Source: Paramarasmius palmivorus (taxonomy: Eukaryota > Basidiomycota > Agaricomycetes > Agaricales > Marasmiaceae). From it: a DNA stretch of 64,000 bases. The translations under genes were made by a program, and so were the position numbers. Positions 25,541-63,906 of the stretch are shown here, in pieces. The notes beneath the pieces are model-generated. The model saw only the letters and a program-made list of their open reading frames with translations. It made no database searches and had not been told where the DNA came from. The DNA lies in contig JAYKXP010000118.1 of NCBI GenBank assembly GCA_037176845.1, positions 1-64,000 on the forward strand, written 5' to 3'. Each line of letters opens with the position of its first letter. Position 1 is the stretch's first letter.

Positions 25541-27254
25541 TTAAGCCCTCGAGAGCAGGTAGCGAGACAAACACATCATACCCCCTAAATGCGCCAAAGG
25601 TCAGTGCTTTTCAACAGATGGATGTTATTCAGACCATACCGCCAGCATCGGAAGAACTGTATAGATCAGAGTCCAAAAGCGAGGTAACGAGGCGAAAGAT
25701 CGAATTTGGACCCCTCTGCTCAAATTGTTCGGGTAGGTGGCAATATGGGCCGGGATTGAAACAGAGCAGATTCTGAAATCGTCCCATGCTTCTCTGAATC
25801 GCCCTTAGCAAGGCAGGGCTATACCAGTGGTCCGGTGGGTGCACAATTGCCAGCTCCAAAGAGGATAGAAATTGTCTCCGACGTGACATGATATGCAAAG
25901 CCTCCCAATCAAGGCGTTTTATGCCCGTTGGAAGCTGATCGTACGGTAGGAAGGGTGTGGGACATAGGGCCAATTCAGCGAGATTGGGCCAACAAGCTGT
26001 GAGGCTCGTTAATTCGGAACAGTCAATGGAGACTGGATAGATGTGGTGATAGCTGAATACTTTCAGTCTACTACACAAAGAGAAGGGTAGTAGATCTGAA
26101 GTAGCAATCATATCCTCCAGTTCCGGCCTTAGCTTGGATAGAACATTGATCTCTTCTCCGTTGCGGTCCACGGCAAATTCAAGAACAATCTCCTCAAGCG
26201 TCAAGTAGCTCTCGGAGATAGCGAAATGTAGCTGCTTCATTTCAGCCGGCGACGGCGGGTTGGGAGCCAGCGTGCCAGCTGGGATACTGAGTACGATACT
26301 CCTGAGAGATTTGTTGGACATGGATCGAAAGAACTGCGTCGCAACTACATGGGTACAACACTGAAGTTCGACACTTGTCAGGCCATGAAAGCTATCGGGA
26401 AGAAGGGTGACAGGAACGAAGATGTACTCCGAAGAAGTGAAATGCCTGGCATCTCTGACTACCTCTGCGGGAGCACCAAAGGCGAGACTCCGGATGTTGA
26501 GAGAAGCAATGAAAAGATCGAAGGCAGGGAGGTAGGCAGAACACGGAAGACGCAGAGTCTCCAGGTCGTACAGAGACTGTGTTATCGTCGCATACAAGTC
26601 TGTGACCCGCCGAGGCAATGGTACCGTGATCTCCAGACGTCTGAGTTGTGGCATAGATTGGGGTATGGAGACCAACAACTGTTCCAGAGAGTCCTCGAAT
26701 TCCGCTGATCGATAGACATTCCGGGTGTCTTGTAAGTCGTCCAATATACGAAAGTCCGTAATCTGGTGATTAACCAAGGCCGACAATCGCTGTGAACTGG
26801 ACGCCTGTGTGAGATTCACGAGACGTAAGGAGGTGACATTTGGAAGGAAGAGGGACAGTGCGTGTGGGATGGTAGAGAGGGCATATAAAACCCATTCCAG
26901 AGCAAAAGGGTCGACCAGATGCTCGTCAAAGTTAATTCCGTGGATACGATGTGCGTAAATTTCACGGAAGCGACGAATAGAGTCATTCTGGTGAGAATTG
27001 TGAGTACAGCGTTAACAAGGCAGGAAATCATTGCTCACATTTAGGCTAAAATTGCAAGTTGCAGATAATAGATGAGCCGGATCCTTGATGGTATGCCATC
27101 GGATACGAACGTAGACGGAGAACCACTGACGACAAACCAAAGCGAAGTGCTTGTCGGACGTGGAGGAATCTTCACAATAGTGAAAAGTGAGCAGAAGGAG
27201 CTCCGGTGAGTGCAGTACAGGGTGTGCCGTCTTTAGCCTCGAATTTTGGGACAT
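25541..27254 (-). CDS. F-box protein, lineage family copy 2
   Basis: Three exons, about 540 residues, ATG 27254 to TAA 25541. Exon 1 encodes the F-box: HSPELLLLTFHYCEDSSTSD, HFALVCRQWFSVYV, RWHTIKDPAHLL. Exon 2 starts NDSIRRFREIYAHRIHGINF and carries the leucine-rich body (MPQLRRLEITVPLP, LRSIVLSIPAGTLAPNPP, CWPNLAELALCPTPFLP, FNPGPYCHLP). The last exon, reached through an intron at about 25586-25639, ends MCLSRYLLSRA, the counterpart of VVIRYRV in copy 1. Intron positions equal those of the other copies. It stands head-to-head with copy 3 (starts 488 bp apart), so the two probably share a promoter region that contains a TTCC microsatellite. Confidence 0.85.
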
Positions 27255-27742: not shown

Positions 27743-29514
27743 ATGGCCAGTAAATCCATTCTCATAGCTCAATCTCGGTTTCATCAATCATCTCAGAAAC
27801 CCATCCATCATGCTTTGCTTCTGCCAGAGCTAATCCTCAGGATTTTTCACTTTTGCGAGCCTTCCGATGATGCTGACAAGCACTTCGCTCTCGTGTGCAA
27901 CATGTGGTTCGAGGTCTTTGTTTCTACCAGGTGGCAGACCGTCCGGGACCCGCGACGTCTGCTAGGTGCATATGGATTCTATGTGGGTTTCAATTCCTGG
28001 GCTGAATTCGGCAGTCTGCTAATGGATTCGTATATATGAACGTTTTTGCACAGGGATCGGCCAGGAAGCGGCGCTACAATGAGATATACTCTCAGCATGT
28101 CCAATTTCTCGACTTCGACGAACAACATCTCGGCTCGAGTGCTTTGGACAATTTCTTCGACACGCTCAGGTTTATCGAACATATCCCCATACTCCCGAAC
28201 GTCACCTCTCTGCGATTCGCCAACGTAAGGCACGCGCAGAGGTTCGGACAGATTTCATTGTGGATGAATCACCGCATCACGAAATTCGTGATAGAGGACG
28301 ACTTTCAGGCGAGCAGTAATAGGCTTCTCTTCTCAGAGAGTTCTTATCATCGACTCTTGCTTCGCATCCCGATACACATGCCCTACCTCAGGCAGCTAGA
28401 GCTGGGTCTACAGTTTAACCTTGGCTTCTCCTCATACCAGCCCGTGGTAGATTCCCTAAAAGACCTTCGTATCATTCGTCTTCCGGCATTGGGCACAATT
28501 CCCAACTTCAGTCCCATTTCTTCTGCACACCTTGAAAGTCTCGCTGTTGGAGTTAAACGCGAAATTGTCGACCGCGCACTCCACTTCACGGGTTATGGTT
28601 ATGTGGACACGCCGATTCTTCTTATTCCCGATTGCTTCCCGAATCTTTCGACCTTCGAAGTCTATTGCACCCACCTGGAGGCCATAAGGTTCTTCCGGTC
28701 CATCCATTCCACCCGGCTTCGAAATATTGCTATATCCGTCCCAGCGGGTCGATCCGTGCAAGACTTTGACCTGCCTTCGAGAGGGGAAATTCGTGTCCTG
28801 TTCTCAGCTATCGCACATGCAGCACCGTCGGCGCAAAAAGTGAGCTTACAGCTTCTGGTGGACAAGAGTGGAGCCCAGATCTTCGGCCTAGTAAAAGGCA
28901 AGCCGGATATCGTCGATATGGTGCATGTCGACGACCTCATACCGCTATCTGCGTGTGTTGAAATCACATCATTCGTATTGGACCATGTTTACCCTGCAAG
29001 CATGAACTCGGAGGATGTAGTTCGACTCACAGCGGCCTGGCCCAAGCTTAGAGAGCTTGCGATCTGTCCAGGTCCACTCCTTCCTCTTGGTAGATACCCC
29101 TTTGGTATGAAGCACCCGGATTGGACGGTTTTACCACTATTCGCCCGTTACAATCCTCACATCTCCGTAGTTCGCCTGGTAATCATGAGTCCACCTCTCG
29201 TGCACTTCTCAGGCCTCAGTGATAGCTTTCGCAAATTGTTGCTGTCATCTTTTGATCCAGGACCCTACGTCCAAACGGACAATATGGATACCAGAATATT
29301 CCGCCCTGGGATCAACGGGTTTCGAGAGCTGACAACTGTATATCATTGTACTTTTGTAGAAGGTGCGTAGATTCAATTCTGGCATATCTCCTACTACGCA
29401 ACTAACGCCGGAAATTTCCCAGACCAAACGGCTAACAAAAATGAGGACGAGTCCAGCATGGTTTGGCTCAGCCGTTATCGAGTTAAAATAGCTAATTCAG
29501 TAACGAGCCCTTGA
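27743..29514 (+). CDS. F-box protein, lineage family copy 3
   Basis: Three exons, about 555 residues, ATG 27743 to TGA 29514. Exon 1: LLLPELILRIFHFCEPSDDA, HFALVCNMWFEVFV, RWQTVRDPRRLL. Exon 2 begins GSARKRRYNEIYSQHVQFLD and repeats the family words RMPYLRQLELG-like MPYLRQLELGLQF, LRNIAISVPAGRS, WPKLRELAICPGPLLPLG, FDPGPYVQ. After a 60-base intron the last exon adds DQTANKNEDESSMVWLSRYR and VKIANSVTSP. Expected role: substrate adaptor of an SCF ubiquitin ligase, by the F-box only. A TTTAAA element sits about 45 bp upstream of the ATG. Divergent partner: copy 2. Confidence 0.85.
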
Positions 29515-38599: not shown

Positions 38600-41500
38600 T
38601 AAGGGTGTATTTTCTTATATATACGATTAATACAGGCGTGCGATACTGTGGATGGCGAATGCCCGAGAAGCTTGAATCTCCTGAGGAAGTATCGTGTACC
38701 TTCGGGAACCCTAGATGGCAAACATACATCTGGCCCTTTTCATCGTTGCTCAACCTGATCATCTTCTACGTTTTCCAACCAAGTCTGAGGATAGTGTTAG
38801 CGTCAAGAGTCGGTCCAATCAAAGGATTGGACATAACGCACCCTGCTAAGTGAAATTATGACAGCTAACTTTGCGTTACCCTTCCAGTCTATGTCGCATT
38901 TTGCGTATTGAGATCCCAAGTCCGCGGGCGAAATCAGTCTGTAATTTTGAGCAAGTTTACGGCTCCACAACCTAGCATTCAAAATGGGATAATCCCTATA
39001 TGGATCCGGTTCAACGTTCGCGCCAACGAGTGGCAGAACAATGATATACACGTTCTGTGCCTTGTCGATCATGATTGATTCGATGACAGCGGGTTCTTGG
39101 TTCGAAATCAGGACTTGGCTGTTTCCCTGATGATGAGCGCGTATCATGTAACGTATACCACCATGCTCAAGAGCTTTCCGCATCACGACCTTTGGCGGAA
39201 TCGGCGTACCAGCAGTTCGAAAGGCTTCCCAATAGATCTTTTCAACGCTGATACCACTGAAATTACAGTCGACGTCGGTATCATCTATATCATCGCTATC
39301 CTGCGCATCGTCTCGATCAGATACAGAGGAAAAGAATTTGATATCCGAGCTAAGAGAGTCCCTGGTAGAAGGGCCGACGAGCTTCTTGAATATGGCTGTA
39401 GCGGTTTGAACGATAGGCGGAGCTTTGACCATACACGCCCGGAAATTGGCCTGCTCTGTGTATGAAAAAGCAATCGTTTGTTCATATTCCCCTAAAGCGA
39501 TATATAAATGAGATAGGCGGCTTGAGGTGCTATGTAAAAGGGGCCTTACCCTCTCTGTAGTTGGTGTTCAGTCTTTGTAAATGGCCTATCATTCTCTCCC
39601 ATGGAAAGCACCACCATGAATGTGCTGGACCGAATAAGGTCGCAAATTCGTGGACATGCATTGCCATATGGTGGTTTGGGTGAGGTTTATACAACGGGAA
39701 TAGAATTTGGAGGTTTTCAAGATAGCGAGTGATGTAAAACTCATAGTGAGAAATACTTCGTTTAGTGGCTATTCGAGAAGATGCAATAATAACGGCGCAA
39801 ACTAGATCCATTGTTAGCTGTAAGACACGAGATTTGTGCTGCATTTCGGGGTTTGTAACATCCGTGGGCGAGTTTGACCATAGTCGTATCAGCGTGATCG
39901 GGAGGTAAAGGGTCCCGAGCATTCTCCATTGGTCCGCTTTCAGCTTTCCATGGGCTGATCCCGGTATAGTTGGAACAGAAGTTATCCAGGAGGGCTTTGT
40001 CGTGTTCTTGATATCGGCCCATATCTGGCGGGTCTCTGCCGATGAGAGTACCGCACCATGAACCTGGAGTGGACTGATGGGTGCTGCTCGTGTTTCGACT
40101 TGTCGTGAACGCTATTGACCTGAGATTAACGTGAAATCTTTGAGTTAAAAGTCAGAAGCACGCACCCACTTCAACAACTCGAGAGCTAAGTCAAAACATG
40201 TCCCTTCTGCGGCCGACTTGACTAAACCTTTGACAAGGTATATCAAAGTTGCTTTCTGAAGCTTCTTCCACTTTTGGGCGAGGGCAAGTAGCTTCTCTTC
40301 ACTGTTTATCTTGTCAGACATCGGACTTCGCAGTTTGTCGAGGGTTTTGTCAATTTGGCGGTGAGCAGGAGACTCTCGAGGCGGCTTTGGATTTTCCACC
40401 GTCTCGCATATTGCGGGTAAGTTACAGTGAAGTTGTCCGGACGATTCCTCCTGTCGTTGTTGTTCCCTGCGTTTCGCAGCCTGCATCTCTTTTTCACTGG
40501 GGTTGTAGCCCAAGATGTGGCGAAAATGTTGCATGAGTAGGCCAAGGTAAAGGTTATGCATCGGATCCACCACCAACATATTTGGTAGATCAAAATACGG
40601 AAGACGGTAGAACTGGCTCCACCGAACTCCAGATGCAGCGAAGATGTGGTTCTTCGCCGCTTCTGTTGGTGCGTCGCGGTGTCGGAAAGCCCAGGTCCTG
40701 GTTTCTTCACCAGTTCGCATTGACCATGCCTTGCGATTCGTGCTGCCCAAGCCTATATCCGTTCCCAGACGACACCAGCACCTGGAACATGGGTTCGTAT
40801 GACTGCAGTCAGCCATTCCTGTCAATTTTCGAGCGGCACGCAGGTCACATATTAAAAGGATGAGGGCCAGTACAATTAGCCTTCCCAGTGCATATAAATA
40901 GGTGCGGGAGAAGAAAACGCCGTCCCAGAATGCAAGCAGCTGATCCACCAAAGGTACGAAATAGTTATCGATGTTGGAAATGGAGGGCTCATGAGGCCCA
41001 GAGATTATTCCTGAGAGGAACAAATTCTCAGGTTTGTAGCGGTGCTGCGGCGGAAGGTTCATGCAAGCAAGGACCAACACACCGACTGATATCATCTTCC
41101 CAGATTGTTTGTTGCCCAAGGGATTAAAAAAGTCAAATCCAAGTGATAGGAGATAGCGACTTTGCGTGGAATCACGAGGCTCTCGGTACGGTTTCCCATC
41201 CTTCCATTGAAATTCCTTGAGGTACCTACCATGGTATACATCGGACATGATATCGACCTCCTCGTCGAGTTTGTCCCAAGATGACACCATGAGTTCCTCG
41301 TATCCGGGACGAGACAGAAGCTCCGCCATCCAATCTCTAAGATCAAAGTACACGAAAGGTTTGATCGGGACCAGAACAGTACGCCCTTGAACCACTTTGG
41401 GACGTAAGATCTGGGATTTACACCGCTTCATCCGTCGGTTTCCAATGCGATTCCTGCAGACTGGCGGGTAACTGACTCTACTATGAGAGTCAGTGCGTGG

Positions 41501-43300
41501 AGGGTGGAGATGTGAGCATGAAGGGCATGCGGCGTAAACCGTGGACGTTTGTCCGAGATTGAAGTGCTTGATAACAGTTGGAACATCCTTTGGAAATTTC
41601 GATACAAATTGAACCCAGTGGGATGGTACGGGTAAATGGAATGTGGCGTAAAACTGGCGAAGACACTCTGAGACAATTAGAGCAACCATCCCAAGAAGCC
41701 AGACCCCTCCACGTCTCGGAAGTCGGAGAACCAGAGCGCATGCTGCGACCATATACGCAGTAAGTTGTATGATAGCATTGGCGTTCGCCATGGGAATGTG
41801 AAAATGACGTGCTAGTAGATCGGAGGGGTTAGTCAGTGTGAGGGCGATATGACAAGAACCGTACCAGTGTCGTAAGAATCGAATGCTTCAACGGGAATGC
41901 TTTCAGCAATGCGAACTTCCAGCACCTGTTTCGCTTGTTCCCAATACATTCTTCCACGGTTAGCCCTCAACAAACATTCTTGAACAGCGTTGGAAGCAGC
42001 GTCGAGCATGCACCGAACATCTGGCCTGAGGAAATTGCCCCTTGCTTGGTCCAGTCGGCGACTCAAGGTCTTGGCGTCAGTTGCATGCTTTTCCCAAAGC
42101 ATCAGATGCTTTAACACTTCATCTAATTGCACCTCGATGGAAGGAACTGTAGGAATGGTCCCAATTTCGAAGGGTTGGGATGGTGTTGGGGGAAGGGAAT
42201 CGGAAAGATGACGTGCGGCGTCGTGAAATTCGGAGAACACTGCTATCAGCCCGGCGGCACGAGAGCGATCTTGGGCGGTCGAAACCATTGTATCGGACAA
42301 CTGTTCCTCTTCAAGTCTCTTGAGAGCACTGTTTTGTGCTTTCTGTGCATCTTTGAGACGATTCTCCGCGATAGCTTGCCTTTGGCGAGTCAACTCGTCC
42401 TTTTCATGAGCTCGTAGAGCATTCATGCTTGGTACAATCCGACCAGGGGTACCATCTTCAAGGCGTTTCATGAAACAACCTCTTGCTTCGCAGCGGCATA
42501 TAATGTCCTGCGACATCGTGGAGGAGGGGAAAACAGTGATTGAGAGCTGGCATGTCTGTGAGGCCTATAAGCTGATAGGAATGTTTCCGGATGGGGTAAC
42601 TGCATGGCTGATAGCATCCAACCGTTGCTGAATGGTTGCGATGTAGGGTGATCATTCGACTTGATTGCGAGGTGAAGGGACAATTGGACCATTGCTCGTG
42701 CTACCGGAATGAAGCTGACTGGGTGTTTCATGATGCTCCTTGTCACGAAATGACCCAGCAATAGGGATGTGCCAACCCGACGCATATGCATGCTGTATAA
42801 TCGCCCAAAACAGTGGGTAATTGACAATCCCAAGACAGTCTAAAATATTACTAGTATTAATACTATGTCCTGGCGAGCCGCTCAAAAAGACTACTAACCA
42901 GTCACCATTGATTGTAAATCACCGAACATGAACTAGTTGAGTTTGAGCTTTGAGATTGGTTCAACTTGTTGGGAATACGAAGACAAATGTCAATGATCAA
43001 GCTTCGAGCACGGGAGCGTTCTCAAGTTAACATGCCCCCTATCATCGTCATATTCAACCAAAAAGGCTGGGCAACTACGTATCCACAGTCCGAGCCATCG
43101 AGGAAAAGGAACAAAAACTTGAACGAATGTGAGTGAAGAGTGACAATTACGGCCAGGGCTGTCTTCGCACAACTCTAATACTCCAGTTCGTCACGCTGCA
43201 CGTAAATCAATCTAAAACGTAGGTTCTATAACGGAAAACACTCTACAAAACAGTGTAATACATGTAACAAGTCGAGATCGTGCAAAAAAATACTTGGTAT
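38600..43300 (-). mobile_element. Probable Plavaka-like (CACTA superfamily) DNA transposon, ends not located
   Basis: The transposase gene implies an element spanning at least 38.8-42.5 kb. Terminal inverted repeats and target-site duplications were not identified by eye, so the limits given are nominal. Short AT-rich palindromic sequence (ACTAGTATTAATACTA) occurs at 42850 but is not shown to be a terminus. Confidence 0.5.
38803..42516 (-). CDS. Tnp2/Plavaka-type DNA transposase
   Basis: Five to six exons, about 1,150 residues, from ATG 42516 (MSQDIICRCEARGC, a small Cys-rich start). A helical region (DELTRQRQAIAENRLKDAQK) precedes the catalytic part. Diagnostic words occur in order: IKPFVYFDLRDWMAELLSRP, ICDLRAARKLTGMADC, CSRCWCRLG, YFDLPNMLVVDPMHNLYLGL, SSAETRQIWADIKNTTKPSW, LKADQWRMLGTLYLPITLIR, PNHHMAMHVHEFATLFGPAH, SWWCFPWERMIGHLQRLNTN. 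The aspartates in CDLRAARK and VVDPMHNL and the glutamate in FPWER are candidates for the DDE set. The frame is open through all exons when introns at about 40090-40149 and 39484-39550 are removed, so the gene may be functional. The very 3' end (after GSQYAKCDIDWKG) could use another splice and stop at 38766. Confidence 0.85.
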
Positions 43301-48234: not shown

Positions 48235-50106
48235 ATGCACGAAGTCTTGCAGACAGCAGAACTTCTATGCCTCATATTCGATTTCTGCGAGTCGTCTCGT
48301 GAGGCAGACAAACGATTCGCAATGGTCTGTCAACAGTGGTTTGGAGTATATGTGTATACTCGATGGCGGGTCGTTAGGGACCCTGAGCTCTTATTAACGG
48401 TTTTTGAGGCACAAGTGCGTGAACCACATACTTATTTAGATGTACATTCGCCTGATTCTCATATCTCTAGCAGGACTCTTTAGATCCAGGACGGTTTGAT
48501 ACCATCTATGGCACACGTATCCACGGTCTTGATTTCGACGAGGAGAAAGTCGACACCTTTGCCTTGGATAGGTTTTTCGTTGCGATTCGGCGCTCCGAAC
48601 GCCCACTTCGTCTTCCAGGACTGTGGTCGTTGAAATTCATCAACGTGCCACATCAGTATACTAGACTCGAGCAGATTTCTCTGTTGATGAACGAACGCAT
48701 CACTGAGTTTGCTGTTATGGAACGCCCAAGGCTTAATAACGGACATCCTCTGCTCTCACACCAGTTCTTTGAACAATTCCTGCTCCGTATATCCCAACGT
48801 ATGCCCTATCTTCGCCAATTAGAGCTTGGCGTGAAGGCTAGTCAACACCCTGCGGAATTTTCTGCCTATAGGCGAATGGTTTCCTCCCTAAGGACTCTCC
48901 GCCGCATCCGCTTGCCTTCCTCTCCTACTCTCCCCGACATCCAAACCTTTGTCGAGTCCCGAGACATCGAAAGCATAGCCTTTGGTGTTCTTCCGGCCCG
49001 CGGCAGCTATTTCATAGGCTCTGATTACGTGCGATCACCCATTACTCTCGCGCTAGATTGGTTCTCTTCGTTATCGGAGCTGGAAGTGTTTTGCACTATC
49101 GACGAGGCCTTTGTGTTATTCTGTTCCTTCAGCAATACCAGGAGCATTCTGAAAAACCTCACATTGTCATTTCCCGTAGGTCGGTCGGCAAACGAGATCC
49201 CCTCTCCTCTCGCTATAAGAGAGCTTCACGCGGTTATCGCTCAGAGCTGTCCTCAGCTGCTCAGACTGAGCATCCTTTGTTTAGCAGACTACTTTCAAAG
49301 CCATATCACTAGCCTGACTAAATCCAAACCCAGACTGGACGACATCATACGCATTGATGACCTCTTGCCGCTAACACTCTGCACCAACATCATTTCCTTC
49401 GTATTCGAGCACGTTTATCCTGTCTCTGCCAATTCAGCTGAGATTGGATATCTTACGTCCTCGTGGCGCAATCTCAGCAATATCGTGATATGTCCCAATC
49501 CAATACTCCCTTGCGTGAGATTTCCCGATGGCATAAAACACCCAGACTGGAGGGTGGCAGTGTGTCTTGCAGACAGCAATCCTTTGATTTCTGTGGTTCG
49601 TATCAGAATCATGGACCCGCCATTTGTCACACCCTATAGCCCAAGATGTGTCGACGGCGTTCTACAAGCTTTCAATAGCTTGAAGAACCTGGAGTGGTTT
49701 GATCCCGGTCCTTATGCCGAGCTTCCACAACCAGAGGACGGTGTTCAAATGTTCCGCACGGGACCCGAGACGTCTGGCTTCCAAGTTCGAGAGATCACTA
49801 GCTTCCATATGGTCGAGGATGTTGGCGGTGGCTCCTTTAATTTGGACAGGTCAACTCAGAACAGCAACGGAGGTAAGCTAGCGCCCTCTCTTGATCCTGA
49901 AGCTTTGCAGACTCATACATACGGTGACAGTGACAGATGACAAGATGATTTGGTTGACCCGGTTCCTTGTACCCGACACTCGGGCAATGACAGTGACCAT
50001 CAACTCACTTCGTCGTCGGCTTGAAGGCTTTGATGAACACCTCGAACACTCCGCTGGAGTAGCCGAGGATGGTGAAATAAGAGTTACTACTACTAGCGTA
50101 CGATAA
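48235..50106 (+). CDS. F-box protein, lineage family copy 4
   Basis: Three exons, about 585 residues, ATG 48235 to TAA 50106. Exon 1: MHEVLQTAELLCLIFDFCES, RFAMVCQQWFGVYV, RWRVVRDPELLL. Exon 2 begins QDSLDPGRFDTIYGTRIHGL and has the family body: RMPYLRQLELGVK, LKNLTLSFPVGRSANEIPSP, WRNLSNIVICPNPILPCVRF, FDPGPYAELP. The last exon is longer than in the other copies: DDKMIWLTRFLVPDTRAMTV, then about 35 more residues ending VTTTSVR. Its N-terminal lead before the F-box is about 20 residues shorter. Expected to act as an SCF substrate adaptor through the F-box; target unknown. Confidence 0.85.
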
Positions 50107-52729: not shown

Positions 52730-54120
52730 ATGGCTAGCAAGCCCTGCACACCGTTTTATGGCTGGACTCGCCATGAATCACATCCCGTACGTTTCACTAC
52801 GTTGAGATCATGTTTTGCAGCTGATCTCAGAACACGACCAGGACACTCATTCTACTTGCTTCTCTCGACATTTCCGCCGCAATCACCGTGGAGTTTCCTC
52901 AAAACATGATCGCTGGCGAAAATACGCTCTTTACATGGACACGGAGACAGAGAGATCCACAGAGCTTTTATATCACCTACGAGAACCAGAACCGTGACGG
53001 ATCCAAAACGGAACAAACTAACATTGACTCGAACAGCGCGTTGAAGGGAACAGGAAGTGTGATTTTTACAAATGTTGGGTGGGTAAAGGCTGCGTATCTC
53101 AAAGGTCTGTACTCACTCGACTCCTCAAAGTAACTTCCAGATCGATGTTTTTGATGAACAAGATGTCACGTACGTTTTTTCCTCAGGACCTAGTGATGAT
53201 CCATGGAGCTCATTCCCACCGTGCCGAAGCGCAAGCGACATTCTGTATTCGCTCACTCTGCCAGTCTTTTCGAATTCGGCTTCTTCCGCTGAATCCCCAA
53301 CATTGTGATCTACTTTTAAAACTCTAACGTGTTTGGAATAACTGATCATACCGCTCCTATCTAGATCAAACCCGCCTACAGATCCAGCCACCCCCTCTCA
53401 ACTTGAGGCTGAGTCGACGGAAATGTAAGATATTCATGAAAGCTGATTATCTCGAGGGTGAATTAACATTTTACAGTATTCAGAATACGAGCGTGACTAT
53501 GCTAAGCATATCCAACACTCTCTCGAATGGGTAGGATGCTCCTCGAACATTCATTTGGACGTAAATTAACGTTCGGGTCAGTGATATGACTGGAACGACA
53601 GTATCTACTATGTTTGCATCTACATCGACAGGAATGTAAGTCAAGGTCATCTATTCGCGTCAAAATTGACACCATGGAATACTGTAGCGTCATCGGACCT
53701 ACCTCAGGGTCCACCGCCCAGCCCAAGTTATCAACCTCGAAGCTCAACGTCGGTGCTATCATAGGGATAGTCATCGGAGTAATCACTTCAGCTATACTAG
53801 TGGTTGCGGGGGTAATCATATTCCGAAACAAGCGCAAAAAAGGTTCCAAATCAGCGACTTTCGAAGAAGATGTAGTACCCTACCCACGCACGACATCGAC
53901 TTCCCAAGTTCATGTCACGAAGAAACAGGAATCGCTGGACTTGGATCACATTCAACGCAGCTGTCTAGATCCGCATGGAGAACAGGATGTAGCCGTGCGA
54001 GAAAGACGCGTGGTTTACCTCGAGGATAGCGGATGGAGACCATCTCCCTTGACTAGAGATGCAGACGATTCAGGTTCTAGTGTCGTTGTCATGCCGCCTC
54101 GGTATGATGCTGCAGTGTAA
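52730..54120 (+). CDS. Surface-protein gene A: Kre9-like ectodomain, one membrane helix, PPRY tail
   Basis: About seven exons, about 330 residues, ATG 52730 (MASKPCTPFYGWTRHESHP). The second exon gives a hydrophobic lead (TRTLILLASLDISAAITVEF) and a Kre9/KNH-like start: FPQNMIAGENTLFTWTRRQR, DPQSFYITYEN, closing GNFQIDVFDEQDVT. A Ser/Thr-rich stalk over small exons (TMLSISNTLSNG, MFASTSTG, GPTSGSTAQPKLSTSKL) leads to the helix VGAIIGIVIGVITSAILVVA, stop-transfer RNKRKK, and a cytoplasmic tail with RVVYLEDSGWRPSP and the end VVMPPRYDAAV. The tail motifs recur in C and D. PPRY fits PPxY, the ligand of WW domains in Rsp5/Nedd4 ubiquitin ligases. Junctions in 53150-53350 are the least certain. 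Convergent with gene B. Confidence 0.7.
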
Positions 54121-54914
54121 TAGTCGCCGTTCTAAATCCGTCAAACACATCTTCCATGAGCATCTTCAATGTTTCAAGATCTCTACGAAGAGTCACCTGT
54201 GAGAGCATCTTCTCGTGCTGTGCATATGTGAGCATCATATCGAAAGGTTCTCTGATGTGACATTCCCGTATTTTCTCAGCGTTGTGGGTTTGAGTCATTG
54301 AAGGTTCTTTCCGTAATGCTACGTCGTTTTTGTTTGCCAGACCGTGAAATGGGAGTATTCTACAGCCACACGAACACAGGTTAACCTACCTGTACGTCCA
54401 TAAAGCACAGCTTGGCGTACCATCGTAATGGTGAGTGTCATTGTGATCGTTGTTTCGAACAGAACATAGGGGATCATATCACCGGTACATTGATTAATCC
54501 AAGGATAACACGGGGCAGAACCATAGTGAGGAGGCACCTGTGAATCTTACATGTGACCGTGATGATTGTCATATCCACTATGTGTTGTGATCTTAGGCTC
54601 TCGTCAAAGGCACCGCCAACGCACCTTAATCCAATATAGCGCTTTTTATAGTTTCCCGAGCCTGAGAGTAATGTACATAATTTTGTGGCATGTAGAAACT
54701 TTTTTTGTTCCAGATCTAACATTTGATCATCATGCTGCCTTGGTGAGGTTTTCGACTTTTTCCCCCAGGATACCGCCGTCTGAATCAATTGTCCCGTAAC
54801 AGCGGGGATAACTGAAAGCCAGATATTGGACTTCTACATCAATTGCGTGCATGGTTATTCTGGAACTGGTTTCAGTGAGTTGTGCTACTAGCGTTTCAGT
54901 CGACACTCTTCCCA

Positions 54915-55871
54915 TTATAGAGCATTATCATATGGTGGTAGAGTTCTCGCCCGCGAGCTTGACCTAGTGACACCGCTGCTACTCCTTGTGTCGTATTCTG
55001 GCGGCAGGACATAATCCCTCACCAGCCGCTCATTCTCCCTCTTGAGCACGTCAATCTGGGAGTGTAGTTCCCTAATCTGCACGGAAGTTCTTGGTTGATC
55101 CACCCGTGTAGAGGCTATCAAAATCTCGTTGGATCGGTGTTGAGCTTGTGTTTCGCCTTCGGCGTTCTGAGTCGAAGACGATGACGGCATCGGAAACGGC
55201 TGGTCACTATCCGATGTCAATGGGGTTCCTTTCTTGCTTGATATTTGATTGTAAACAATCTCTGGATTAGTTTTAAATGGCTCAATAGCTCCCGCCTCAC
55301 GTTCTTCTGCAATATTTTTAAGCAAACTCGAAACAGCGTATGGAGATCATAACCTACGTTTTTTGTCTCTTGCGACTTTCAGTTTTTTATGGTGTCCTTT
55401 TCGCTCTATGAACAGGAACAATAAAAGCAAGAGGACCGAAAGTCCACCAAGAATCCCCCCAACAATAGTTCCTACTGGGATGCGTGGTGAAGATTTAAGC
55501 TGGATTTGTTGTGGAGGATTGGATGATTTTGTGGTTGCTTCAGTTGCTAATGGGGCTGTACCATCCGTGCCGCTATTGACGAATTAGCTTTGAAAAAAAA
55601 CCTGAAAAACCTCAATAAGATATACCTGGTGGTTGTTGTAATCTCTCCAGGTGCTGTTGGGGTGATTCTGGGATTCTCTGCTGCTATGACTGTGATACAG
55701 GACAGGAATGCAAGGAATGTGACACTAGCTTCCCCTGAAATTCAGCAGCAAAATTAGGAATAAAAGTATATAACCCACATTAACAGTTTCAACATTCGAG
55801 GAAGGGAGCAGGAGAAATCGTCCAGCGCACCAAATGATAGGTGAAAATGCGGGGTGTGAAAAATGAAACAT
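54915..55871 (-). CDS. Surface-protein gene B: membrane protein without large ectodomain
   Basis: Four exons, about 265 residues. ATG 55871 (MFHFSHPAFSPIIWC) joins through a 50-base intron to GEASVTFLAFLSCITVIAAE, then a Thr-rich linker (PTAPGEITTTT, LATEATTKSSNPPQQIQL), a membrane helix IPVGTIVGGILGGLSVLLLL and a basic stop-transfer ERKGHHKKLK. The tail has a coiled coil (IRELHSQIDVLKRENERLVR), LPPEYDTRSSS and the end RTLPPYDNAL. PPEY matches PPxY, and LPPYDNAL parallels the MPPRYDSAL end of C. The DSGWRP motif is missing and the Kre9-like domain is absent or reduced, so this is the most divergent member. Start and first exon are tentative. Confidence 0.6.
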
Positions 55872-57396
55872 GCATGGAATAATATAGTGATAAATCATCT
55901 CAATGATCCTAAGACCAATTTTTGCTTCCCTACGAATGATCCGTACTAGCATATTTACGATGGTCTAGTAACGATGATCATAATCGATGCCGGAGACAGC
56001 CGCATACGTGATTCCTATGCTTTGCCAAGCCTTTGAATAAGATTATGCAAATAAATAACGGGACGTATGCATGAGGATGTAAAATACCCAATCTCACTCT
56101 CTATCTCTAGAGTAGCTGTCCTATATTGTGCTTCGCATCCTACCCCATTGTCTACACCCTAATCCTCTTCTGACGCGGGAGAATCTTGTTTTGCACAAGC
56201 GGTGCCTTTTGTTCAATCAGTATCTGTTCACTTCGGCGTCCCGTTGACGTGACACGATTGATGAATGTACTGCAGCGATTGTATTCTGTCCCTGCAGAAA
56301 CAGCGCCCGACAAAGACGATGACGGGTTAGTTGAGCAAAAATGAAAGGTCTTTGCTCAACAAAGATCAAAGGAATTGCCTTATGTGGCAGTCCGGATCGC
56401 CGGCCTGGGAGCAAATCTTTTCCCGCAAACCGAGCATCATTTTTATTCTATCCTGTTTCTCATGAAACAGAATCCACTCACTGCAGGGATGAGAGGTCAC
56501 CTGTAACAGCTCCTAGACGAGACGTCTGGGTACGGTGGCTTAGAGCCTCAGATCACCCGCAACCTGGACATTGCGAGGTTTCATGACAACGTAAATACAG
56601 GTGCTGGGGAAAGATAAAACTGAGGAAGGCAAGCCGCAAAATAACAGGCTTGTTCGTATACTGACAGTCCTGATAAACGGGTGGTTCCCGGGTTCCTGGT
56701 TCCCCATTCCGCTGACTTATGTTTCCCACACCATTTTCTCCCTTCCATCACTACCGCGGGCAGCGCCTGTCATTTTTCCCGTCACTTTTTCCTTCTTTAA
56801 CTCAAGCATGGCATCGAAGGAGAAGGATCTTGGAAGACGCATTGGACTCAATGATCGCCTGAAGGGTATCTCAAGGTGACCCCCGTTTACCGGAGATTGT
56901 AAGGAACGCGTAAATGTAGAGAAGTAGGCGTAGGCGTTACATCGCCAGTGCCAGCGGTGGGTTGCTCATCGACTCGTCTTCTCACTCACCTAAGCATGTG
57001 AACGTAATACTTGTCTCCTATGTAGTATCCATTTTGTGTTGTGATATATCATCCCGCGAAGCCCGAAAGAGAAGGACTATTGGACCGTACACCTTCGGTC
57101 TAACGAGACAGACCACTGGAGAGGTGATTGCGAGCGATATTGGATAGCTCTCCTAGGCCAATTTACCGCAGTCACGAAATCTCACACGCACACTGATTCT
57201 CCAAGGGCAGAGACTAACTCGGCGCGTTCAAACCTCGTTCAAACTCCCAATATACATCTCAATGATCTTTGGTGTGTAATCGAAGATGAAAAAGACATGC
57301 ATCAGACTACGCGTGAAAAATGTCAAGCTGCTTCGAACTCGTTAGAATGGTTTCACGAAATTCAATAGATGCCACCTAATACATGCGGGGTACTTT
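55872..57396. other. Intergenic, no gene assigned
   Basis: Short frames at 56341-56586 and 56601-56879 have no splice partners or known motifs. Nothing further seen in about 1.5 kb. Confidence 0.4.
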
Positions 57397-57973
57397 CTAA
57401 GCTTCAACCATAATTAAAGTATCATATGAACCAATATCCAAAGGTCCTGGACCGGTGCAACACAGGGCTTGCGGGCTTTCAAATCTACAATGAGTCCCAG
57501 GAGGAGATACAACAGTAGATTGTACTTACAACGAATCATCAATAGCATAAAGCTGATACGTCCTACGTCACCATGAGCAATCCAGAAATCGTGAGCATGC
57601 CCAGATAAGTACTCACCCAGATGAAATTCGCCCCCACGTAGCATTTGACGTCCCACTCTCTCCATTAAAAGGCGTAGAATCATCTTTCGCACGGATACCC
57701 AAGAAATTCGCACCGGGAGGCCTCAGACTGAAAATGAATGGGGTAGTTGATTCGCCGGCAGGTTGGTGCCACTGAATTACAAGCGATATGGCGCCGTTCA
57801 CTGGGGAAACTGTTATAGGATTGACGTTGTCAATTACCACCTCCTTGGACGCGGCTGTTTGAGCCCATGGTAGTAGTGCTGCTATGGTGAGTGCCCTGAG
57901 AAGATTAAGTGATTTTGAGGAATGGTCAGCGACGGATGACGTACAAATAGGTTGTACGCAGGGATAGAAACAT
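57397..57973 (-). CDS. Secreted Kre9-like protein without membrane helix
   Basis: Four exons, about 145 residues, ATG 57973. Exon 1 (MFLSLRTTYL) joins in phase to ALTIAALLPWAQTAASK, a good signal peptide with an A-x-A-like cleavage site. The mature part reads EVVIDNVNPITVSPVNGAIS, LVIQWHQPAGESTTPFIFSL, then ATWGRISSGTYQLYAIDDS across a phase-2 intron; this is the fold-defining start and Gly-Thr-Tyr-x-Leu-x-Ala end of a Kre9/KNH-like Ig domain. The last exon gives FESPQALCCTGPGPLDIGSY and ends IMVEA. No Ser/Thr stalk, membrane helix or PPRY tail follows. It is therefore a soluble counterpart of the neighbouring membrane proteins. Role unknown. Confidence 0.65.
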
Positions 57974-60900
57974 CGTCGCAGACCTAAAACTGCGACCAAG
58001 CAATGTCCTGCGTTTATATACATTTCCCTGCGGTGGTGTTGTTAGTATATGTTCCCGATCATGACGGTGATTCAAAGTGCGATTGTATAAGCCATAGAAT
58101 GGAGGCAGAGCAAGCTCCGTAACGGTACTGCATTCCCTCGTATTTCTTGACGCAACCATGCGGTGAAATCTATTATTGAAGCAATTAGGAGACGGGATGT
58201 TTATCATTCACCAGCTGCGAGCGGCATGCCATATTGATTTATGAATAATATATACATCGATGTCCAAGGGTAAGGAAATGACAGGTACGCACCTCTTGAG
58301 AGCTTGATACGGGAAGAGAGACTTGAAAGGCATTCGCCGCACGAGTCAAAAACTGGATGCCCAGCTTTGCCCAAGGAGGTAGTAACGGGAATCTGTAACC
58401 TTTGATCTCCCGTAACGAGTAGTACATTGGAGTTAGCATTATCATTCGATGCAGTGAGATAATCGTGAGGAACCTGAATAAAATGAATAAGTGCACGAGT
58501 ATTCAAGAAACGCACCATTGTTCACTACGGCGAGGATTGTACCTAGTCTCCGACCTACTACAGCGCCATTCATAAAATACACTTCGCTCTTTCACTCGAC
58601 CTTATGTTCGAAGTCATTGGGGGTGCCAGGAAAAGTTCATCCATGTACAATGATCTGGATAGCAACGTATTCAGTACCTTCCAGGAACAAACTAGCTCCA
58701 ATGGTTCACGGCACGAGGCATATTCGCGGGAGGATATGTCAAAGCAAACTGACTAGGGGCCACGGGCAAGCATATGGAAAGCTCGGCCAATGAAACTGTC
58801 TCCGCGTCGAGAGGATGATAAGGCGAAGAAACCGCCGTGGAAATGAAGTTGAGTATCGAGAGCGACTTGCATAGAATGAGGAAAGAACATCGATGTATCA
58901 TATGCTCGTTCTATCGTGTTTTGATGAACACGGACGCTACTTATAAACCCTTTTCCGTCTTTGCGCATTAGCCTTTGCCCGAACGACACGCAAGCAATAC
59001 AGCGAGCGAGACCGTTCATTTACTTCATCGTGCATGAAGGCTACCCATACGATAGTCATGACAAGAAGGTGAACGAACGGCGTGCTATCAAGGAGAATCA
59101 CGTATCAAGAAACCAATGTGTGCCGAGGGGTATTGAATGATTTGGGGTACCGATAACTTTGCAGGGTTGCAGGTTTTGAACCACCTTCAAGTTCATAGAC
59201 TTGAGTAAGATATCATCAACGGGACTAAACTGACCTACTTCCAAATCCAAACGGTTCTGCGAAATGCATGTCCTACCACCAATAGTGGCCTGACCGCATC
59301 TCCTTCTCGGTACTACCCAGCCCACGCTGTCCAAGGCCAATCTCCGAAGTCCGTCTTGCCTAACATAAGGAAAACGAGTCCATGCCTGGCTGAACCACTG
59401 TCCAGGACGTGACGTTTTCATGTCTCCGTAATATGTTCGGGCGAGAATTCGACGAGACCGTGGAGACTGTAGAGACGGCCTTCGTGCTGCATGTATCGTT
59501 CCGAGGGATGAAAAGAACTTCGAAGGGAAAAATGTGGGAGACATCGAAATCACGATAATCGTTTTCTGGAGAACGTGGGTTGATTTTGCTGGTAGGCAAT
59601 GCCAGATCGACTAAGTACGAAATGGGGATGAGAAGAGAACGACTTCGCTTGACATTTCTATGCGATGATTGATCTAATCGGATCTCGTTTCAACGTGGAC
59701 CAGCTCCATGATAATGGAGTAAACGCACCGTGTACGCTATAGCTCTATGTTGGCAATAGCTCATCCCAACTTAACGACTCGTCCCTTCTTCATTTGCTCA
59801 TAACCCTTTCGACCCGAGAAAAACCACGGAGCATGTAAGCGCACGACTTTCATCCGATAACGAAGGGCAAATTGGAAGCGAGAACCTTCATGCAGAAGGG
59901 CAGCAGGAAGGACGGTGATGATGTAGGTAAGGCTCTGCGTCGGGAGGGTCAAAAAAACCTCAATGTCGGTAAGACTGCGGTAACTTACCGTCCTCGATTC
60001 CGCCTATTGACGCTGAGAGCTGAGAGTCCAGAATATAGGAGGTGGAGAAATAGGTAGACCACTTTATGCAGCTTATACCACTGGCACAAGACTACAGCGC
60101 CAACATCAAGAGCAGAAGGTGACTAATGGCTGAGATGGTGAGGACAGGAGCGAGGAAGCAATGGTGTATGATACATGATGAGGCATCGGAGATGCATGCA
60201 TTATGGCAGGAGGTCGTGGCGGGGCTGTGTATGTGGTCGATCGAGTCTTTCAGTGTCCTCCGGAGGTGGGGGGCATAAATGTCCTGAGCTGTTGTCAGAG
60301 TCAGCGAAGAGAACATAACTTATAAGGCCAACGCACTTGTTCCGAATCCACCCATCCGGAAGCTCATCCTCAGCCAAACAGTCATACACTGTTTCCATCT
60401 ATTTACCTCCACCAGAAAAGCAGAAAGGCAGAGAGCATGGTCGTTAAGGTGAAGGCCTAGGAAAGGAAGGATCCGGGCGATCACGCAAGAAAAAAAAGCA
60501 CGTGGCAGAAACCAACGCGCCTTCCATTTTGGAAATTTGGATATTAGCGCCCGTGTGCCGTCAATCGTTGAGGTTTCCCTTTCAGGTTGACCATCTTCTC
60601 CCGTAATCTGAAGAGACACGATCAGGCTTGTAACCGCAAGCGCTAGGCACCCGGAAGATTCTTGCTATGTCAGCATCGTAGGAGAACGTACCTCGGTTCT
60701 GATCACTTCTTCGAAGAGGTCATTCACGTCTTCTTACAACCATCACGATTCCATGCCATTAAACAACAGATGTTACATGGTAAGCACTGCTTCACAAGTG
60801 ATTTAAATGATCCAATACTATCGATATCAACGTTATTGTTGACTGTGGAATCCTAGTATGCAGCTCGACTGAGCGCTCTCGTTGTCGCAGCTTTTCCATT

Positions 60901-61102
60901 CACGTCCCTTTGTTTTTGTAGGTAATCTCCGTCATTACACTGTCAGTGATATTTCTACACTCAAGCGTTCCTGCTATCTGATCATCATCACCCACAATCA
61001 GATGAGCACAGCATTCTGTCACTTCCCAGTGTCGACCGTCTTGAGTCCATTGAACGAGTACATAATTCTCCGAGCGACTCTGGCTGAAATTTTATGTCGC
61101 TA
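57974..61102 (-). other. Unresolved coding-like region
   Basis: Several minus-strand stretches look protein-coding but do not join into one model: 58204-58518 (FIQVPHDYLTASNDNANSNV, TSLGKAGHPVFDSCGECL), 58692-58901 (SLSILNFISTAVSSPYHPLD, FALTYPPANMPRAVN), 59098-59553 (RLALDSVGWVVPRRRCGQAT), 60092-60316 with a hydrophobic C-terminus (LTISAISHLLLLMLAL) and 60320-60619. The second has a signal-peptide-like start. Some could be decayed relatives of the flanking surface-protein genes or an unrelated secreted-protein gene. No function is claimed. Confidence 0.3.
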
Positions 61103-62357
61103 ATGTTCCCATCCTGGTGAGCTAACCTTGACATTCAGCCTTGTACACGCTTGTCACTCATCGCTCACAGTTTAACACTCGCCCAGATCGCCTCCTTCTA
61201 CCTCCTTGCCATCAGTAGATCAAATGCTTTCACCATTTCTGCTCCAAATGTTGTCGATGTCAACACTCCAACAAACATTGTCGGTAGATGGACATGGAAC
61301 ACAGGCGAACCAACGTCATGAAAGCCGTACTCGAAGGCCAAAGAACCGGTTCGCCGTTCCTAACACAGCATATCTTTGATGATATCGACAAGGCGCAGGA
61401 GGTCAATGGGAAGAAGACTGGTAACGCATTTTTTGGAGCAGATCTACCTGGGTGCGTTGTTACTCTTTGCAATCTTCTCCAAATAGGGCTGATTCATCCA
61501 ATGAAGAAACTACATCTTATGCGCTTACCAAGGGTGAGCACCATCTCTTCACAAAGCAGTCGGAACGTGTTCGCTAAGTGAGCGAGTCTCGTAGTGCTTC
61601 TGATCTTTTCCTCGCCGCACAATCCGACGTAATCAGTGTATCCCGTCTGGATGTTTTGAGTTCCGCATCGTCACTCGCTTCCTCCACTACCAGCGGCTCA
61701 TCAGAATTGAGTTTAGATACGGCAACGAAGATACCGACTATTCCATCCAGGACAACCGCCACGACAGCGTCCACCGACATAACCAATTCTAAGCCCACTG
61801 AACCAACCAAGACTCCTTTGGAGTTTGAATCAATGACGTCTTCTCGTGCGGATACCGGAGACACTGGAACTCCAACCATAATCAAATCCACTCCGACTAC
61901 CCAGTCATCCACTTCCCATAATCCAACTAAGAGCGCTACCAGCTCTATCTCACCTACGAACTCGGTTGCAAGCTCGCCTAAATATTCTTCGGGAGTAACC
62001 GCCGGCTTGGTGGTAGGAGTTTTGTTCCTTGTACTCGCCTTGTGCGGAGGTATACTCCTCTATCTTCGTCAGAGGCTACGAAAGGGGCGCACCAAATCAA
62101 TGTCTCCGTACGTACATTCATCAACTGTGGAGAAGCTCCCACGGAAGGATCGTATAAATTGGGGATCTAGTACCCCAGAGTCCGCGGTGGATGCTTCAAC
62201 TGCAGCTCAAGATGAAGGCCGCGAGGAGCATGTTGAAGAAGAGGAGAGCCGTGAACAAGTAGTGGTATATCATGATGATGGCGGCTGGAGACCACAGCTA
62301 CAAGCAAGAGGTCTCACAGTTTTGGAGATGCCGCCTAGGTATGATTCTGCATTGTAG
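61103..62357 (+). pseudogene. Surface-protein gene C: Kre9-like, membrane helix, PPRY tail, probable frameshift
   Basis: Exon 1 (ATG 61103, MFPSC) joins through a 54-base intron to LTLAQIASFYLLAISRSNAF, a signal peptide. The ectodomain starts TISAPNVVDVNTPTNIVGRW, TWNTGEPT. At about 61311-61318 the frame meets TGA, while the next frame continues the domain (VMKAVLEGQRTGSPFLTQHI, AFFGADLP) as in paralog D. One base appears lost, or the assembly is wrong. Two further introns (about 55 and 50 bases) lead to SESRSASDLF, a long Ser/Thr stalk, helix SGVTAGLVVGVLFLVLALCG, stop-transfer RQRLRKGRTK, then VVVYHDDGGWRPQL and LEMPPRYDSAL. About 370 residues if the shift is ignored. The tail is intact. 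Convergent with D. Confidence 0.65.
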
Positions 62358-62818
62358 GAAAAGTTTTTCATTTCTGTTAAAGGAGGTCATGACCAATATC
62401 ACTATCTGAGGCAGGATAGGACAAAATGGAAACAGTCTCATCTGCGTTCTTGACCTTGATCAACAATCAATCAAATACGCTCTGAGATAGTGTGTCCATT
62501 CCAGGTGATTTGATGACGAATGACAAGTGAAGCTTTGGCCAGATTCACGGCAAGGAGATTACCATGATCATCTACCTGCGAATTCACACTTTTACCTAAA
62601 TTATAGGAGCTGAAAGTTAAATGTGGCAGTGGGAAAATGCAAGCCTCGCGTTCTATTTGACTATTGTAATGGAGGATGAGCGATACAATGAGCTCAATTC
62701 ACGACGTCGCTTGCAATATAATGTAAGCTAATTCGTAGTGTCTTGCTTGAATCTAGTATGTACCACCTCACAGAAATGCCCAATGTCCTGTATGTATATT
62801 AAATATTGACACAATCGT
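62358..62818. other. Gap between convergent genes C and D
   Basis: Shared 3' region, no gene or repeat recognised. Confidence 0.5.
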
Positions 62819-63906
62819 TCAGAGTGCAGAATGATAGCGGGGCGGCATTTCCAAAACGCCGCTCATTCCCAGATCAGACTGCGATAGTACTCTCCCAGGA
62901 GGCCTCCAACCACTATCTTTGTGGTACATCACCCTAAGTTCTTCCCGACTCTCATCCCGTGTCCGTTCTAACCGACCCGAGGCATCCTGGGCTAACACAT
63001 GTGTTCTATCGTATTCTGAAATCCGAGATGAACCACGACCCTTTTTCGGTACCTTATGTATCGGCGCCATCTGGGAGAAAGGCGTGATAATGAATTTTGC
63101 ATGGAAATTTTGCGCATTTTCGTGATTCAAGTGACGGCTCCGTCTGAAAATAAGAAGTACTGCCAATATCATTCCTGCGAGCAGGACGGCTCCAATCACA
63201 ATCCCTGTGATAATTCCAGCGGATAGCCTTGGTGCGCTCTCCGAGCTGTGCTGAGATTAGATTGTCATTACATATAGTAGACCTCTGTATTACCTTCCGG
63301 GCCCCGAACCTGAAAGGGTGGTCGAGTTGGAGAATATGGGTGTCTGGAGATGGGATACACTAAAAACACTCGAGTTTGCAACAGACACCAGATTCAATGG
63401 TCTGCATCCAACGATTAGCAATCTCGCCAGCCGTATGACGGTGTTGACTGTACCCTTCAGGCATTGTGACATCCTCGTAGGCACACAGGATATACTCCCT
63501 GTGATGTAATTCAATGTAGGTCGGTGTACCGGCAACGCTAATGACAAAACTTACCCGACTTTATCAGCTTGGTAGAATATAGTCCCGTGTCTCTGGCCGT
63601 CAATCTCCATCTCCTCTTGAATCTTTCTCTGAATACCCTCGGAATGAATAGGGTTTGCTTTCGTGAATACACAAACGTCCGTGATATTGTTCACGAAGAG
63701 ATGAATTAAGATTTTTGTTGGGTCTCCCTCAGCCCAAGTCCAATTTCCCGCAATATTATTGATACGATCCACATCTGCAACCGGAGGAGCAACGATAGAG
63801 AATCCTGAGACATAGGACATGAAGAGAAAGACAGAACTGGCTGTGCTGACAAACATAAGTAACCCACCAAGATCCATGACAGTAGTACTCACGAAAATGG
63901 CCCCAT
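62819..63906 (-). CDS. Surface-protein gene D: Kre9-like ectodomain, membrane helix, PPRY tail
   Basis: About four exons, about 330 residues, ATG 63906. The five-residue first exon (MGPFS) joins in split codon to SSVFLFMSYVSGFSIVAPPV, a signal peptide, mirroring gene C's exon structure. The ectodomain reads VADVDRINNIAGNWTWAEGD, PTKILIHLFVNN and ends GQRHGTIFYQADK. After an intron, a Ser/Thr-rich stalk (LQTPIFSNSTTLSGSGPG) leads to helix SAGIITGIVIGAVLLAGMIL, stop-transfer FRRSRHLNH, and a tail with RVMYHKDSGWRPPG and VLEMPPRYHSAL. The WTWxxGxPT word places it closest to C. PPRY is a PPxY WW-ligand. The stalk exon borders are less certain than the rest. Confidence 0.7.

Follow-up and report, generated by a model that had tools for sequence, protein, structure and literature searches.

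The first 64,000 bases of contig C118 of Paramarasmius palmivorus (bases 1-64000 of 147,534 bp, hereafter the window; assembly of 68.3 Mb in 393 contigs) contain the edge of an array of genes for predicted type I single-pass surface proteins, in which one conserved C-terminal tail is found, in many clustered copies, on divergent ectodomains. The predicted order is signal peptide, small ectodomain, Ser/Thr stalk, one transmembrane (TM) helix and basic stop-transfer, followed, often after a juxtamembrane [ST]PY motif, by a C-terminal module common to genes A, C and D of the window, DSGWRP...PPxYxxA-hydrophobic-COOH. A preliminary description of the window had proposed four tail-matched genes, A to D, in two convergent pairs forming a cluster that ends at 63.9 kb. 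The pattern is true and unusual, with one gene too many, and only the edge of the array had been seen, as tails continue to 146 kb on the same contig.

The conserved tail module

When the TM-plus-tail segments of A, C and D are aligned, 24 columns are invariant, including DxGWRP (C reads DGGWRP) and PPRYxxA, and the best other genomic copy of the gene C tail exon is found at E = 1.2e-63. As the bare PPRY codon pattern occurs genome-wide at background (343 + 360 sites, versus 375 + 367 for the reversed pattern), the evidence for the tail lies in the combination of DSGWRP, PPxY and a fixed C-terminus. PPxY was therefore judged without selecting by it, using a core profile of 20 columns ending in DSGWRP, made of 15 sequences and scanned on the open reading frames (ORFs) of loci L001-L092. 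Among the 81 distinct ORFs containing this core, PPxY is present in 80 and the frame ends exactly four residues past its Tyr in 71 (the script counts 76 and 70; the remaining 11 rows, some with profile overrun, were read by eye). By comparison, PPxY lies within the last 12 residues in 5 of the 1,070 other open frames of at least 60 amino acids in the same loci, frames that are presumably mostly non-coding. As the loci were fetched by whole-tail matches, this sample cannot count as independent of the motif. Within the P. palmivorus genome, the check for tail motifs at a background rate did not refute the proposal of a tail-sharing family.

The 80 distinct tails are preceded by a 19-residue window of mean hydropathy above 1.9 in 76 cases. 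DSGWRP is exact in 69 of them, and 56 carry an [IVMLF][STND]P[YF] motif next to the membrane.

Some departures from the module were observed. The one core ORF without PPxY, on the minus strand of L009, ends in LPEYETEYRA instead of PPxYxxA. In a subgroup on contigs C77, C188, C312 and C164 (L003-L008, L010, L012, L013 and L018), the tail extends beyond PPxY to WQER- or WRES-like ends and DSGWRP is decayed in most members (DSERRP, DSEWRT), PPxY being kept; the second motif appears to be fading there while PPxY is retained. A reading of DSG as a beta-TrCP phosphodegron was dropped by eye, the second Ser standing at no fixed spacing.

Copy number and clustering

Searches of the genome return at least 135 matches at E <= 1 for the gene C tail exon (147 of 184 candidates scored), at least 150 for a 39-residue consensus tail (150 of 167 scored), at least 144 at E <= 0.1 for a 41-residue consensus of the PPEYENAL branch (150 of 151 scored) and, with some loci matched twice, at least 167 for the annotated relative P0007 (150 of 277 scored). 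The union of the gene C exon and the two consensus searches (about E <= 3e-3) gives at least 155 tail loci. Most of these (143) lie on 11 contigs, the relevant parts of which amount to about 1.45 Mb or 2.1% of the genome; these contigs were picked after the matches were known, and the figure is a description and no statistical test. The total of 155 is a lower bound (for example, member L091 on C13 is outside the union), which is also inflated by alleles, overlapping contigs and decayed copies.

Inflation by shared blocks is indicated by constant coordinate sums or differences between contigs: (i) C77 and C104 have seven tails with a nearly constant sum (219,061-219,069), (ii) C104 and C137 have a constant sum in four of five tails, and (iii) C93 and C104 have a constant difference in three of four tails, the fourth being off by 130. 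For C93/C195 and C164/C104, colinearity is no more than loose. The 94 tails in L001-L092 reduce to 80 distinct 55-residue ends, that of gene A being added, and to 53 representatives below 78% identity. A minority of the tail matches contain stops. Outside the cluster the assembly is essentially haploid: core genes look single, with Rpb2-type matches occupying three contigs, the number that polymerases I, II and III would give, and the 8 kb at 40-48 kb of the window have no near-identical second copy. An exact triple TTAGGG is found at 7 sites versus 12 for a control, which gives no reading of subtelomeric position.

Protein searches with the family return P. palmivorus proteins, P0003 (source lgn) and P0008 (source ena) and none from other named species, in searches that need shared exact words (2,393, 5 and 7,995 candidates scored) and that do not show absence elsewhere. 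Among the papers listed by searches of the published literature, none was seen to describe such a tail-sharing surface family.

Divergent ectodomains and apparent mosaicism

Exons upstream of the tail were grouped with phmmer for 82 genes, and seven groups (D, A, L3, V, K, Q and T), totalling 48 genes, were compared. One tail type is found with no fewer than seven groups of ectodomains, of which V, K and Q are related, with profile-profile links of 97% for V-K, 93% for V-Q and 81% for K-Q. The D-L3 link is weak (65%) and possibly made via the leader, and no link is seen for A or T (at most 6%, with column-shuffled controls below 3%). These results agree with the expanded, clustered family with a conserved tail and a variable outside that had been proposed from the window.

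Within groups, 150 non-independent pairs were compared; a further 12 (11 D, 1 Q) had under 45 aligned ectodomain codons and were left out. In 132 of the 150 pairs, identity is higher over the last 45 residues than over the ectodomain. Median identities for the ectodomain and the last 45 residues are, respectively, 54 and 66% in D, 35 and 66% in A, 66 and 69% in L3, 43 and 61% in V, 32 and 54% in K, 39 and 89% in Q, and 70 and 79% in T. The ratio of nonsynonymous to synonymous substitution rates (dN/dS) of the last 45 codons has group medians of 0.13-0.52, without any pair above 1, and L3 is the only one of the seven groups in which it is not lower than in the ectodomain.

Ectodomain and tail exons appear mosaic. 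Among the 34 pairs with a young TM-tail segment (synonymous divergence dS < 0.3), the dS of the ectodomain is more than three times larger in 11 (D 3, L3 3, K 1, Q 4), and the reverse pattern is found in none of the 22 pairs with an ectodomain dS < 0.3. When C118:77017 and C164:46752 are compared, TM and tail are 91% identical (dS 0.10) and the ectodomains 62% (dS 0.46). Mosaic histories, by tail conversion or ectodomain replacement, would yield such older ectodomains on young tails; alternatively, a higher mutation rate or a poorer alignment in the ectodomain might make it look old. One further protein, P0003, from another data set whose longest contig is 1303 bp, carries a D-type ectodomain on a tail without DSGWRP or PPxY; its tail may have been exchanged, or the gene model may be wrong.

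Genes of the window

The gene models consist of exon frames and of a hand model of gene D. The tails of A, C and D are found at the positions and on the strands first proposed for them, and the convergent order, A(+)/B(-) and C(+)/D(-), is correct. It is as a set of four tail-matched genes that the first proposal has to be amended: A, C and D have the common C-terminal module, whereas B has PPxY only and belongs to another family.

Gene D, on the minus strand, gives an intact model of 300 amino acids, in four exons separated by three introns that are all GT..AG. A hydrophobic leader, predicted as signal peptide, and the D-type ectodomain begin in exon 1 (63555..63877), the ectodomain ends in exon 2 (63454..63498; EYILCAYEDVT, the same residues being found in annotated P0001), a short Ser/Thr-rich stalk forms exon 3 (63294..63401), and TM, stop-transfer and tail share exon 4 (62819..63245), with DSGWRP at 62900-62917 and PPRYHSAL at 62822-62845. 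Compared along its length with VNI00_016142, an annotated neighbour, the model shows 50% identity. The tails of VNI00_016142 and VNI00_016143 correspond to those encoded at 68.6 and 77.0 kb on C118.

Gene A, on the plus strand, consists of an A-type ectodomain frame (52825..53133; ITVEFPQNMIAGENTLFTWTRRQRDPQSFY) and of a TM helix and cytoplasmic tail (53737..54120), with DSGWRP at 54025-54042 and PPRYDAAV at 54094-54117. The lead peptide attributed to it has an uncertain 5' start in the window copy and a clear start in the copy on C164, the two copies being 96.4% identical at the DNA level.

Gene C, also on the plus strand, has a long exon for Ser/Thr stalk, TM and tail (61578..62357), with DGGWRP at 62277-62294 and PPRYDSAL at 62331-62354, preceded by a remnant of a D-type ectodomain exon (61121..61321), the frame of which is not open across the exon. 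Only query residues 9-55 are matched there, in a 66-residue frame, versus residues 7-108 in a 181-residue frame of the colinear C164 copy. The ectodomain exon, closed in the window and open in C164, looks broken. Between B and C, a minus-strand frame with a signal-like start and a V-type ectodomain (57613..58041), for which no tail is seen, lies within a block 93.6% identical to C164. This orphan ectodomain may be a relic or a secreted product. A scan of 52-64 kb with Rfam gave no match at gathering level.

The TM exon and tail of gene B (54915..55583, minus strand) contain two PPxY-type motifs, PPEY and PPYD, and no DSGWRP. A genome search with this tail gives 32 matches at E <= 0.1, B itself counted, of which 21 are on C86, C124, C91, C71 and C247, contigs absent from the lists of the DSGWRP consensus-tail searches; C86 alone has 11, and others include C93 and C164. 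Gene B is a member of a second, distinct family with PPxY-type tails, which is like the DSGWRP family in its single pass, its C-terminal PPxY-type motif and its neighbourhood, and differs from it by lacking DSGWRP and by being mostly on other contigs.

Differences between colinear contigs

The region was compared between 48.0-78.2 kb of C118 and 10.9-49.3 kb of C164. The two contigs are colinear from 52.5 kb of C118, and the flanks compared upstream of A do not match. Apart from gene A and the orphan-ectodomain block (see above), identity is 86% in the C region, 92% at the 65.7-kb gene and 89% at the 77-kb gene. Gene content differs between them: C164 is 6.6 kb longer between two adjacent blocks and has no B segment in the colinear place, relatives at 70-86% sitting at C164:60.8-62.8, and the best C164 partner of gene D (74%) is a copy that matches the 65.7-kb gene more closely. 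Between the two copies of gene A, 2 nonsynonymous changes fall in the ectodomain (87 codons) and 3 in the tail (125 codons), with no excess in the ectodomain. The two contigs may represent divergent haplotypes or a recent segmental duplication.

Possible function of the family

The partner expected for a PPxY tail, a ligase of the Rsp5/Nedd4 type, is encoded twice in the same genome. HECT matches occur at five places, three of which were examined (C6, C28 and C10). C6:743700-747240 and C28:242600-246130 each encode C2, three WW and HECT domains, their WW-bearing ORFs being 55% identical; at the C10 locus, no WW domain was found by pattern in the forward frames, Pfam being run on one frame. Such a ligase pair is not special to P. 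palmivorus, as the Laccaria bicolor row gives 2 genes in the first table column of PMC5913265, a column taken to be RSP5. From what is known of the motif, we infer that the PPxY tails dock the WW domains of both ligases.

Our favoured explanation, to which we give an even chance on the basis of protein anatomy and motif knowledge, is that A, C and D are Rsp5-regulated, rapidly diversifying surface receptors or adhesins. Once docked at the PPxY end, the ligases would attach ubiquitin to the tail or to a partner bound to it, and this would control surface level, endocytosis and vacuolar sorting. DSGWRP could be a second docking site, for an intracellular partner, and could serve as a bait for it. 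The diverse ectodomains would bind different outside ligands, and duplication together with tail conversion would create new surface specificities under one intracellular control. Many diverse ectodomains on a single conserved ligase-docking tail would follow the logic of animal receptor clusters.

Several results weigh against this explanation. First, the whole TM-plus-tail segment (110 codons) is more identical than the ectodomain in only 105 of the 150 pairs, and in the D group its median identity (50.5%) is below that of the ectodomain (54.4%); this advantage, weaker than that of the last 45 residues, points to a strong constraint at the very end. Second, the L3 group has an eroded Trp-Arg-Pro core and an extended C-terminus, and the constraint on its last 45 codons does not exceed that on its ectodomain, some L3 copies looking frame-disturbed, with dN/dS possibly raised. 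Third, the ectodomains give no sign of pervasive positive selection: their median dN/dS is 0.34-0.51 across the seven groups, all below 1, a value above 1 is found in 6 of the 150 pairs (4 in L3) and in none for the tail, and D-type values, up to 1.05 with 15 pairs, have a median of 0.37 with 55 pairs. Fourth, the AlphaFold model of P0001 (D-type; five sequences) has a predicted local distance difference test score of 40.5, and only its signal and TM helices are credible. Finally, 66 of the 80 tails have no lysine within the last 45 residues. Within the last 90 residues, 2 of the 80 have none and the median is 2, and the ubiquitin acceptors must therefore sit nearer the membrane or on a partner.

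The proteins could alternatively be adhesins or be bound to the wall, the tail then serving only as a tag for trafficking and turnover, without recognition signalling. This is an unlikely alternative, in keeping with the Ser/Thr stalk, the small ectodomains and the lack of any known signalling domain in the tails scanned with Pfam. However, fungal surface-protein and adhesin arrays are typically GPI (glycosylphosphatidylinositol)-anchored, and the conservation of DSGWRP beside PPxY suggests a second intracellular partner.

The lysine-free ends would also suit proteins that present the ligase to others, that is, Rsp5 adaptors rather than receptors, whose PPxY tail brings Rsp5 to membrane cargoes chosen by the ectodomain or TM. 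Examples are yeast Rcr1/2 and Ssh4/Ear1 and animal Ndfip/Comm, and Rcr1/2 and Ssh4 are PPxY membrane proteins binding Rsp5 WW domains. This alternative is unlikely as well: adaptor families are typically small and conserved, and the yeast proteins are single conserved genes and not arrays with variable ectodomains, whereas about 80 distinct, fast-diverging tails are found here, with ectodomain and stalk exons upstream wherever the models are readable. Yeast Sna3 is likewise reported as a membrane protein with a PPxY motif that binds Rsp5 WW domains and with Rsp5-dependent sorting (PMC2171029).

Domain searches bear on a third alternative, quite improbable in our view, namely cell-wall stress sensors of the Mid2/Wsc type, in which a mannosylated stalk would sense wall strain and the tail would signal. 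The architecture is the same (signal peptide, Ser/Thr stalk and single TM), and UniRef names P0006, P0009 and P0010 as Mid2 domain-containing. However, Pfam Mid2 (PF04478) matches only 2 of 7 proteins, across stalk and TM, at 15.6 and 12.4 bits, below the cut-off of 23.2, and the sensors have another tail and another copy number, being typically few per genome. No Pfam family reached its cut-off in 8 exons and 7 proteins; in 13 sequences at E <= 10, the best match was CYYR1 (E 8e-4, below cut-off), the rest being at 0.0078 or worse.

Birth-and-death evolution that is mostly neutral, in a recombining array where many copies are dead and little function is left, would account for the disrupted ectodomain exon of gene C, the minority of tail matches with stops and the orphan ectodomain at 57.6-58.0 kb, but is very improbable in view of the dN/dS of the last 45 codons in the seven groups and of PPxY being kept in nearly all core ORFs.

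Relation to known systems

The array could further be a cell-surface self/non-self or partner-recognition complex of a mushroom, with haplotype-variable receptors in one or few linked regions, recognition exons that diversify and a conversion-homogenised PPxY/DSGWRP tail that feeds one Rsp5-controlled pathway. This extension is speculative and distinctly unlikely; if true, it would provide the first molecular candidate for basidiomycete somatic-incompatibility loci. The mechanisms by which basidiomycetes recognise non-self mycelium are said to 'remain completely unknown' (PMC8229728), and a clustered receptor family with a content that differs between colinear contigs would bring named genes to this question.

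The tgr genes of Dictyostelium, which include those for TgrB1/TgrC1 allorecognition, also form a large family; they encode recognition proteins, and one locus shows duplication, recombination and structural haplotypes (PMC12324515). Function is demonstrated there, whereas for the P. palmivorus family recognition is a hypothesis; no sequence relation between the two is shown, and a PPxY/DSGWRP tail is not mentioned in the abstract of that paper. Of the traits of tgr- or Alr-like systems, clustering is present in P. palmivorus, and gene content differs between colinear contigs, which may reflect either haplotypes or segmental duplication.

Kre9/KNH-like domains of fungal wall and surface proteins had also been mentioned, and a similar small ectodomain, with a hydrophobic-strand pattern and Trp, is seen by eye. 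However, the Kre9/KNH domain (PF10342) is absent from the Pfam matches at E <= 10 in 13 sequences and 8 exons and at E <= 1 in 7 proteins, a negative limited by the HMMER filters, which remove most weak matches. The immunoglobulin (Ig) V-set domain (PF07686) matches the A ectodomain frame at 17.4 bits (E = 0.005; below the cut-off of 26) and 1 of 13 members at E = 0.073, a trace that we take as a lead and no more. A PDB profile search with the V, K and Q ectodomains matched only NPC2-type chains (E 0.36-0.4), which were taken as chance.

Other features of the window

Outside the array, four long ORFs of the window look alike by eye (18527-19939(+), 25629-27011(-), 28006-29370(+) and 48471-49940(+)). 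They start near IYxxxIHxLxFDE and have a similar body, which suggests paralogues, presumably of F-box/LRR style. Transposase-like ORFs at 39530-41887(-), with DPMHNLYLGL, suggest a DNA transposon of the KDZ/Plavaka kind. Finally, two dispersed repeats lie at 56269-56505 and 56502-56984. The first, of about 230 bp, is found at 84-88% on C55, C349, C149, C203, C15 and others, and the second, split into about 180 + 55 bp, at 75-79% and 85-90% on C133, C104, C77, C110 and others.

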